From Clostridia bacterium (GTDB taxonomy: Bacteria > Bacillota > Clostridia > Lutisporales > Lutisporaceae), in assembly GCA_029239905.1 (NCBI GenBank), contig JARBUB010000037.1:1-34074 (forward strand): DNA of 34,074 nt, given 5' to 3'. The notes beneath the pieces were generated by a model. The model searched no databases, was not told the DNA's origin, and saw nothing but the letters and a program-made list of their open reading frames with translations. Below are positions 1-34,074 of the stretch, piece after piece. Within the stretch, counting starts at the first letter, position 1; every line of letters begins with the position of its first letter. The translations under genes and the position numbers were made by a program.

Positions 1-255
1 TGCTTACTCCGCGGCAGTCCCAGACCATTTTGCGGCAGATGAAAAACCTCAAAATCTCGACGGGATATAAGGGATGGAAGATAGCTTTCATCCCAAAATT
101 TTTTGTTTTTTTCGCCAAACAGAGTAACACTTATGTTTGATTTATCCAGCATAAAATCATAGCCGTCGTTTGGCCAAAAAAAGGTATATGAATTGCTATT
201 GTCAATTGATATAATATTTTCCATCAATCTTGCAGTGTAAGTCCCTATGCCGGTT
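1..255 (-). pseudogene. Host glycosyltransferase gene, 3' portion (runs off the left edge), split by the prophage
   Basis: Minus-strand frame from attL to the left edge is open: ...TGIGTYTARLMENIISIDNSNSYTFFWPNDGYDFMLDKSNISVTLFGEKNKKFWDESYLPSLISRRDFEVFHLPQNGLGLPRSK... The GTGIGTYT and FHLPQNGLGLP motifs are typical of family-1 type glycosyltransferases. The frame joins the right-end fragment when the prophage is removed in silico. Confidence 0.8.
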
Positions 256-1881
256 GCTATCGGCACTAAAGTACAACTCTTTAGCTTTGCCGGTACCCCA
301 GATGTTTATATCTATCTTGCCTTTTGTCCATACAACACTTTCAACAACCTTGTTAATCAGCTTTCGCTTTTCTTCAACTGTCGCATTCTCAATATCTTTT
401 GCAAAGGTGATAATGCTTTCAGTAACTATATCAGCATTAATAGAAACGTTATTGATTACAAATAATTGATCATTGATTTTATTAAGCTCCTGTTGCAATG
501 CATCAAGCTCTGTTTGATGCTTAGATATCTTCTGTTTGATATTGGACTTAGGGAGGTCGTTATCTGTCAACAGATCGATAAGTGCTGATATTCTATCATT
601 TAGCTTGATTATTTCCTTATTGATTTGCTGCTTTTGCTTTTCCATCTCTACACTAGATACCTTTGCTTTATCTTTAAGCTCATTAATCTGTGCTTTGACT
701 ATTTCGGGATTATTAGCTATCTCAATTAGCTTCTCAACAACAATATTGTCTATAATTTCAGTTCGTATATTTGTATTCTCACAAGACTTCATGCCTTTTA
801 CAACTTTAGTCCTGCAGCGGTAATATGTGACCCTCTCATTAGATTGCCTTATTACTTTGCTACCTGACACTACATTCATATTCTTGCCACAGCAGCCGCA
901 TTTCAATATGCCGGCAGATAGAATCCCCTTCTGGGATGGCAAGTTACCTTCTAGTCGCCTATCTACTAAACCCTTCGATACTTCGGCAAATAGTTTGCCT
1001 GGTATTATGCCCTCATGAATACCTATGCTAATAATCCAATCCTCTTTTTCCTTCCAATAACTCTCGCCTACCTTATGACTGGATTTGTTATAGCACATAA
1101 CACCTTTGCTTCCATCCCATTCCTCGCGTGATCCTACTAGATTTACCCCCAAGGTGGAGAAGTAATCATAGGCATCTTGGTCGGCACTACAAAAGACCGG
1201 ATTGTGCAGTAACCTAGCTACAGTACTTAATCCCCACTTGCCATTATGTATTCCTGACACACGATTAGAGATAAGCTTCTCTGAAATTGTGCGTAAAGAT
1301 TCTCCATCCTTTGCCCAGGTAAATATATGTTCTACAATTTTTGAGCGTTCTGGATCCTTGACTAAGAGAGTGGTATTTTTACCATCAACTTTTGTTTTCT
1401 CTACTAAGTAGCCAAAAGGAGGCCTGCCGCCGTTCCATTTACCCTTTTTAGCAAGGTCTAGCATATTATCCTTAACACGCTCAGAAATAGTCTCACGTTC
1501 AAGCTGTGCAAATACAGCAGTAATTAAAAGCATAGCTCTGCCCATTGGGGTAGTAGTATCAAAATTCTCAGATATAGATACAAATCCAATCCCCTTTTTA
1601 TTCAGATCCTCAATAAAATTAATAATATCTATGACTCGTCTTGAAACACGATCCAGTCGATAAAATATTACATTCTGAATTTCGCCACGGTTTATAGCTC
1701 GAAGCATTTCCTGAAATTGCGGGCGGTTCATATCTTTTCCGGAATAATCTTCATCAGAGTAGACTTTGATTTCCCAACCTCTCATAGCAGCAAATGCGCT
1801 GCATCGATCTATTTGGTTTTGTATACTCTCGCCTTTATCAGTAAATACACTTTTACGCGCGTATATAGCTGCTAATTCCAT
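202..1881 (-). CDS. int: Large serine recombinase (phage integrase), prophage form; last 16 codons lie in host DNA
   Basis: Resolvase N-terminus (AIYARKS...QNQIDRC...YSDEDYSGKDMNRPQFQEML...VIFYRLDRVSR), recombinase domain, zinc ribbon (CGCCGKNM...YYRCRTK...SCENTNI), coiled coil. RBS GAGGTG upstream. Confidence 0.95.
   Translation of the reverse strand: MELAAIYARKSVFTDKGESIQNQIDRCSAFAAMRGWEIKVYSDEDYSGKDMNRPQFQEMLRAINRGEIQNVIFYRLDRVSRRVIDIINFIEDLNKKGIGFVSISENFDTTTPMGRAMLLITAVFAQLERETISERVKDNMLDLAKKGKWNGGRPPFGYLVEKTKVDGKNTTLLVKDPERSKIVEHIFTWAKDGESLRTISEKLISNRVSGIHNGKWGLSTVARLLHNPVFCSADQDAYDYFSTLGVNLVGSREEWDGSKGVMCYNKSSHKVGESYWKEKEDWIISIGIHEGIIPGKLFAEVSKGLVDRRLEGNLPSQKGILSAGILKCGCCGKNMNVVSGSKVIRQSNERVTYYRCRTKVVKGMKSCENTNIRTEIIDNIVVEKLIEIANNPEIVKAQINELKDKAKVSSVEMEKQKQQINKEIIKLNDRISALIDLLTDNDLPKSNIKQKISKHQTELDALQQELNKINDQLFVINNVSINADIVTESIITFAKDIENATVEEKRKLINKVVESVVWTKGKIDINIWGTGKAKELYFSADSNRHRDLHCKIDGKYYIN
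243..277. other. attL: attL (host half-site CCCTATGCCG, core GTT 253-255, phage arm GGCACTAAAGTACAAC 262-277)
   Basis: Reconstructed by comparison with the right end. Shared core is GTT/AAC. Phage arm 262-277 matches the right phage arm 33938-33953 as an inverted repeat at 14/16 positions. Host arm matches 33964-33972 as a perfect inverted repeat. Confidence 0.85.
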
Positions 1882-33528: not shown

Positions 33529-33555
33529 ATACTAAAAAATATGCGGAGGGATACT

Positions 33556-33816
33556 ATGAGACCTGTGGAATGTATAGTTGATTGTGATGGCAAAGGCGGG
33601 CTAAAGCCAATGCGAATAAGATTCGAGGATAAAGAAGGAAAACACGTTATAAACGTGGATAAGATTGTTGAGCAAGAGGTTAAAAAGGTCTTTGCATCAA
33701 TGAACAATCCTGCTGGAAGAGCATTCCATTATAAATGTGAGAGCACTATTGATGGTTTACGAGTACCCTTTAAGTTGATGTTCGATAATAATAATTGCAA
33801 ATGGTATTTAATGTAG
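33556..33816 (+). CDS. Small hypothetical protein (last phage gene)
   Basis: RBS GGAGGG; MRPVECIVDCDGKGGLKPMRIRFEDKEGKHVINVDKIVEQEVKKVF...FHYKCESTIDGLRVPFKLMFDNNNCKWYLM. Confidence 0.75.
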   Translation: MRPVECIVDCDGKGGLKPMRIRFEDKEGKHVINVDKIVEQEVKKVFASMNNPAGRAFHYKCESTIDGLRVPFKLMFDNNNCKWYLM

Positions 33817-33848: not shown

Positions 33849-33890
33849 AGACCATTCGGAAAGCTGCAAGAGCTGCTGAGAGAATGGTCT
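33849..33890 (-). terminator. Hairpin immediately after the predicted phage-form integrase stop codon
   Basis: AGACCATTC (33849-33857) / GAATGGTCT (33882-33890). On the minus strand it begins at the TAG at 33889-33891 that ends the attP-form integrase frame. Confidence 0.45.
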
Positions 33891-33923
33891 ATTCCCGCGA
33901 AAATTTTGTTTCATAAGAAAAAC

Positions 33924-34007
33924 TCAATATACTATTTGTTGTACTTTTGTACCTATTGGAGTTCCGGCATAGAGCTTTGCTCCTCTGGTATCAACGCATA
34001 TTTGCAT
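33924..34007 (-). pseudogene. Host glycosyltransferase gene, 5' portion fused to phage DNA (27-aa truncated ORF)
   Basis: RBS GGGAGTGA, ATG at 34007: MQICVDTRGAKLYAGT then phage-derived PIGTKVQQIVY*. Host part ends at the attR core. Confidence 0.8.
33938..33972. other. attR: attR (phage arm GTTGTACTTTTGTACC 33938-33953, core GTT 33961-33963, host half-site CCGGCATAG 33964-33972)
   Basis: See attL; reconstruction gives a palindromic attB and an inverted-repeat attP. Confidence 0.85.
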
Positions 34008-34074
34008 AAGCTCACTCCCAAGGTTTGATTCAGTATACACTTTTCATTATATGATAAGAGGCTGTAAAGGTTGC

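Follow-up and report, generated by a model that had tools for sequence, protein, structure and literature searches.

Does a prophage that integrates through a site inside its own integrase gene regulate that integrase by doing so, or is the change at the end of the protein a by-product of where the site lies? The question is raised by contig JARBUB010000037.1 (G000:C224 in the draft genome), which was analyzed over its whole length of 34,074 nt, referred to here as the window. The contig carries a siphovirus-like prophage of ~33.7 kb that encodes a large serine integrase (LSR), ends at GTT 253-255 and GTT 33961-33963, and lies inside a family-4 glycosyltransferase gene. The initial annotation proposed that attP is located within the integrase gene and that the resulting exchange of C-terminal tail and 3′ UTR constitutes a recombination-coded switch. 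The position of attP in the ORF and the exchange itself stood up to analysis, but a functional effect of the exchange appears unlikely from the sequence. We instead favor, with a probability of about 0.84, an ordinary LSR encoded by a gene with attP directly against its 3′ end, in which the variable tail is a tolerated by-product, both forms are active, and the RDF is a separate protein.

The ends of the prophage were placed by comparison with an unoccupied copy of the host gene. The glycosyltransferase gene runs on the minus strand, with the segment from its ATG up to the insertion at positions 33961-34007 and the portion downstream of the insertion at positions 1-255, from which it continues beyond the window. 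Joining the host flanks at GTT restores an unbroken frame, MQICVDTRGAKLYAGT-GIGTYTARL..., which, extended in a longer identical record (L008), encodes a complete glycosyltransferase of 371 residues with Pfam matches to Glycos_transf_1 (3.6e-37) and Glyco_transf_4 (1e-11). In the sister species G004, the same gene is empty. Its DNA is 93.4% identical across all 366 joined bases, the alignment is ungapped at the junction, and the core of the empty site reads CCCTATGCCGGTTCCGGCATA. The junction with this empty attB identifies GTT at 253-255 as the attL core and GTT at 33961-33963 as the attR core. A search for near homologues of the prophage yielded a sole close record (G148; L008 and L058), which represents the same prophage at the same site and is 100% identical where compared.

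The integrase gene (202-1881, minus strand) encodes a protein of 559 residues in the prophage. Its product contains the combination of domains expected of an LSR, namely a Resolvase catalytic domain (4.5e-41), a Recombinase domain (3.2e-12), and a zinc ribbon (Zn_ribbon_recom, 1.2e-13), all above the Pfam cut-offs, and it matches an integrase in PHROG (3.5e-120). The 3′ end of the gene faces outward, and the ORF crosses the left core in frame, where AAC on the coding strand is read as Asn. The empty attB in G004, the restored host frame, and this in-frame core together place attP within the integrase gene. In the prophage, the protein ends SADSN-RHRDLHCKIDGKYYIN, the last 16 codons and the stop (202-252, minus strand) being host DNA translated out of the glycosyltransferase frame. 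When the phage ends are joined at GTT, the ORF is predicted to continue from the same Asn through 23 codons, SNRYKSTTNSILSFSYETKFSRE, to a TAG at 33891-33889 (33889-33960 including the stop, minus strand), such that the circle form would have 566 residues and end SADSN-SNRYKSTTNSILSFSYETKFSRE. The two forms have 543 residues in common. This shared length, the 16-residue prophage tail, and the position of the circle-form stop agree with the initial annotation; the 24 residues it gave for the circle tail are reached only by including the core Asn. Integration therefore alters the C-terminus in both sequence and length and exchanges the 3′ UTR.

Open tails of 24 and 16 codons are, we infer, about what chance would give once the conserved part ends without a stop, and tails of these lengths therefore need no special explanation. 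At the right phage end, the two alternative frames encounter stops after 12 and 2 codons. An AlphaFold model of the prophage form, built from 5 sequences, had a pTM of 0.41 and a pLDDT below 50 at residues 513-559, which is too poor for placement of the tail.

The two transcripts differ in predicted structure beyond the stop. Directly past the circle-form stop lies a stable hairpin with a 9-bp outer stem (about 33851-33890, minus strand), which overlaps the last two bases of the TAG. Folding bears out this previously noted element, with an energy of -19.4 kcal/mol and a z score of -3.07 compared with shuffled sequences. We considered an intrinsic terminator at this position and rejected it, as the U-tract is absent and the hairpin is missing from the terminator scan. 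No comparable hairpin follows the prophage-form stop (fold z = +1.1).

Alignment of the integrase with its relatives (30-43% identity) stops at residue ~530-537, ahead of the core at residue 543, and several of the relatives terminate within a few residues of this point. The last structural element identified in LSRs is β-strand 14; φC31 integrase can dispense with the 21 residues that follow it, which are its last 21, and integrases that carry large fusions at the C-terminus keep activity (PMC5737554). Neither tail resembles ANENYALAA, the tmRNA tag of the genus, and the circle tail ends KFSRE. The degron logic of integration-dependent immunity is therefore inapplicable here.

Many of the integrase relatives are recombinases of elements that interrupt sigK, and these were the nearest in the genome search. 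We surveyed nine related elements for which both ends could be read, rebuilding the joints in silico. The tail depended on the integration state in six of the nine. Tail lengths in the two states were 0 versus 8 residues in G010 and in G013, 0 versus 52 in G012, 0 versus 33 in G097, 3 versus 202 in G143, and 29 versus 201 in G061, with core placement in the last three being less certain owing to a short common run. In the other three (G015, G021, and G019), the stop codon starts 9-15 nt ahead of the core and the tail is the same in either state. The tail swap is thus conserved neither in sequence, in length, nor in presence, even among close relatives. In free phages that encode related integrases, the best dyad near int is predicted past its stop codon in TPELB_ph1 (+61 nt), A118 (+45 nt), and BL3 (+147 or +186 nt), while the same search near int of ANDSL2_ph1 gave no clear dyad. 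TP901-1 and streptococcal and lactococcal phage records that begin with int were left out because the record ends lie too near int for attP.

Several features of these relatives were observed in passing. In the predicted circles of the sigK elements of G061 (L011/L084) and G143 (L012/L085), the recombinase ORF reads across attP, without a change of frame, into a tandem helix-turn-helix protein (HTH_19 and HTH_3 matches) and gains 201-202 extra residues. The same helix-turn-helix gene is present in G097 (L013/L082), out of frame with the recombinase. In five genomes of one genus of the host family (G010, G015, G021, G019, and G013; L014, L018, L021, L023, and L024, respectively), sigK is split by an element of ~1.6 kb that seemingly consists of a serine recombinase gene alone, with no evident room for an RDF. 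In the Terrisporobacter phage TPELB_ph1, a 103-aa ORF with weak helix-turn-helix similarity (L059:4609-4949) follows the integrase gene directly and apparently starts within the predicted attP.

These observations are consistent with a simple course of events. From about residue 530-537, where the conserved fold ends, up to attP, the integrase frame has no stop codon. Translation would consequently cross attP in the circle, and in the prophage it runs over attL into host DNA, so that integration swaps the 3′ UTR together with a short tail that is not conserved and has 23 residues in the circle and 16 in the prophage. After infection, the circular phage would make the 566-residue integrase, which would recombine attP with a palindromic attB located close to the glycosyltransferase start. 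Once integrated, int ends 16 codons into host DNA, and the resulting 559-residue integrase, together with a separate RDF, would release the phage and thereby repair the glycosyltransferase. Directionality would be set by the RDF, as in other LSRs, where a phage-encoded RDF is needed for excision. Activity of both integrase forms and neutrality of the tail are what we infer from this arrangement.

A functional switch, as initially proposed, would instead require the tail or 3′ UTR to tune the integrase according to its integration state. Good production of the circle form might serve integration, and the prophage form might be scarcer or weaker, limiting spontaneous excision. Both the tail and the 3′ UTR do differ between the forms, and a strong hairpin is present in the circle only. 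Precedent comes from phage Mx8, whose tyrosine integrase is described in PMC4701971 as less active when integrated, and from Ambroset et al., who suggested that the integrase forms of rumA ICEs may differ in function (PMC4701971). An effect is also physically possible in an LSR, as the extreme C-terminus of LI integrase is near the coiled coil, which is involved in directionality (PMC5737554). However, the tail exchanged here lies beyond the conserved region, contains no degron in either form, and belongs to a swap that comes and goes among close relatives, and φC31 integrase can spare its 21-residue tail. We therefore consider a functional effect of some kind improbable. Even less probable is a recombination-coded rheostat, in which the circle form, with its hairpin-capped mRNA and a 23-residue tail near the coiled coil, favors integration and a prophage form that is scarcer or recombines less stabilizes lysogeny without a regulator.

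The attachment sites have the features of an ordinary LSR, being short and dyad-like with a common core of a few bases. On the integrase side, the attP half-site GCTATCGGCACTAAAGTACAACTCTTTA (256-283) lies within the integrase coding sequence, and the half-site at the right phage end (33936-33960) terminates in TTGTACTTTTGTACCTATTGGA. The reconstructed attP, TTGTTGTACTTTTGTACCTATTGGAGTTGCTATCGGCACTAAAGTACAACTC, forms an imperfect dyad around the core with 18 of 25 positions paired, a score matched at only 5 of 33,645 centers within the prophage. The dyad score of attB is 15/25, and the core common to both sites is GTT. An exact 20-mer of intact attP was absent from the viral contigs searched; attP is known here as an in silico joint, with its core expected to read GGAGTTGC. 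The dyad centers lie one base apart, between G and T in attP and between T and T in attB, so the central dinucleotide would be GT or TT. Although this offset and the reconstruction of attP from joined ends could point to a crossover elsewhere, with attP outside the integrase frame or a different circle tail, we regard this as very unlikely because the empty site in G004 aligns ungapped over the joined-flank junction, joining restores the host ORF, and crossover anywhere within GTT yields identical products.

The little-noticed geometry of this locus is already known from other elements, and what is new here is a further phage example. In streptococcal rumA ICEs, the att site lies inside the serine-integrase gene and integration alters the C-terminus in sequence and length (PMC4701971, Ambroset et al. 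2016), as it does here; unlike these conjugative elements, which target rumA, the element in the window is a siphovirus-like prophage inserted into a glycosyltransferase gene. The recombination site is likewise inside the serine integrase gene in IME_Spy2096_SNF2, while in IME_SsuT15_SNF2, which has the same snf2 target, it is adjacent to int (PMC5357655, Coluzzi et al. 2017). This variation parallels that seen in our sigK survey; IME_Spy2096_SNF2 differs from the present prophage in being a mobilizable element that targets snf2. Myxococcus phage Mx8 also carries attP inside int, and according to the account in PMC4701971 (citing Magrini et al. 1999), integration replaces 112 C-terminal residues with 13 and lowers activity. 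As described there, Mx8 differs from our case in the tyrosine type of its integrase, the far larger swap, and the demonstrated loss of activity in the integrated form. The sigK-intervening (skin-type) elements, which are excised during sporulation in studied cases (PMC5025042), encode the nearest relatives of the integrase, several of which also read across the att core, but they target sigK and several copies are very small. Integration-dependent immunity in mycobacteriophages similarly depends on recombination at an attP inside a coding sequence that alters a C-terminus, with integration removing an ssrA-like tag (PMC9262239). That system involves a repressor gene, a tyrosine integrase, and an attB in a tRNA gene, whereas here attP lies in the integrase ORF and the circle form carries no ssrA-like tag.

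State-dependent integrase tails are therefore common, yet inconstant, among the sigK-embedded relatives. An integrase annotated or cloned from a prophage of this type carries a host-derived C-terminus rather than that of the infecting phage, and recombinase mining should for this reason reconstruct the attP version. Serine integrases would possess a built-in sensor of their integration state if the tails did affect activity.

At the right end of the window, an ORF at 33541-33816 is the final phage gene ahead of attR; its product is paralogous to a small chromosomal protein that is conserved and, in related genomes, encoded beside a dinB-like polymerase gene. We considered this ORF as the RDF of an int-attP-rdf unit and rejected it. 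Its homologues include the chromosomal gene next to the dinB-like polymerase gene, further copies have no integrase among the neighboring ORFs read, and it has zero matches in phage records.

An intact copy of the glycosyltransferase gene is located elsewhere in the draft genome (G000:C174, L039) at 84% DNA identity. The flanks in the window (1-255 and 33961-34074) are nearer to the sister species G004, at 93%, with 90-95% identity along the L008 flank. Because the flanks match G004 more closely than the intact copy, the contig may be misbinned or derive from a mixed population. The prophage splits this polysaccharide-type glycosyltransferase gene after ~15 codons, comparable to the insertion of SP-beta in spsM; excision would repair the gene, and lysogeny may change a surface glycan.
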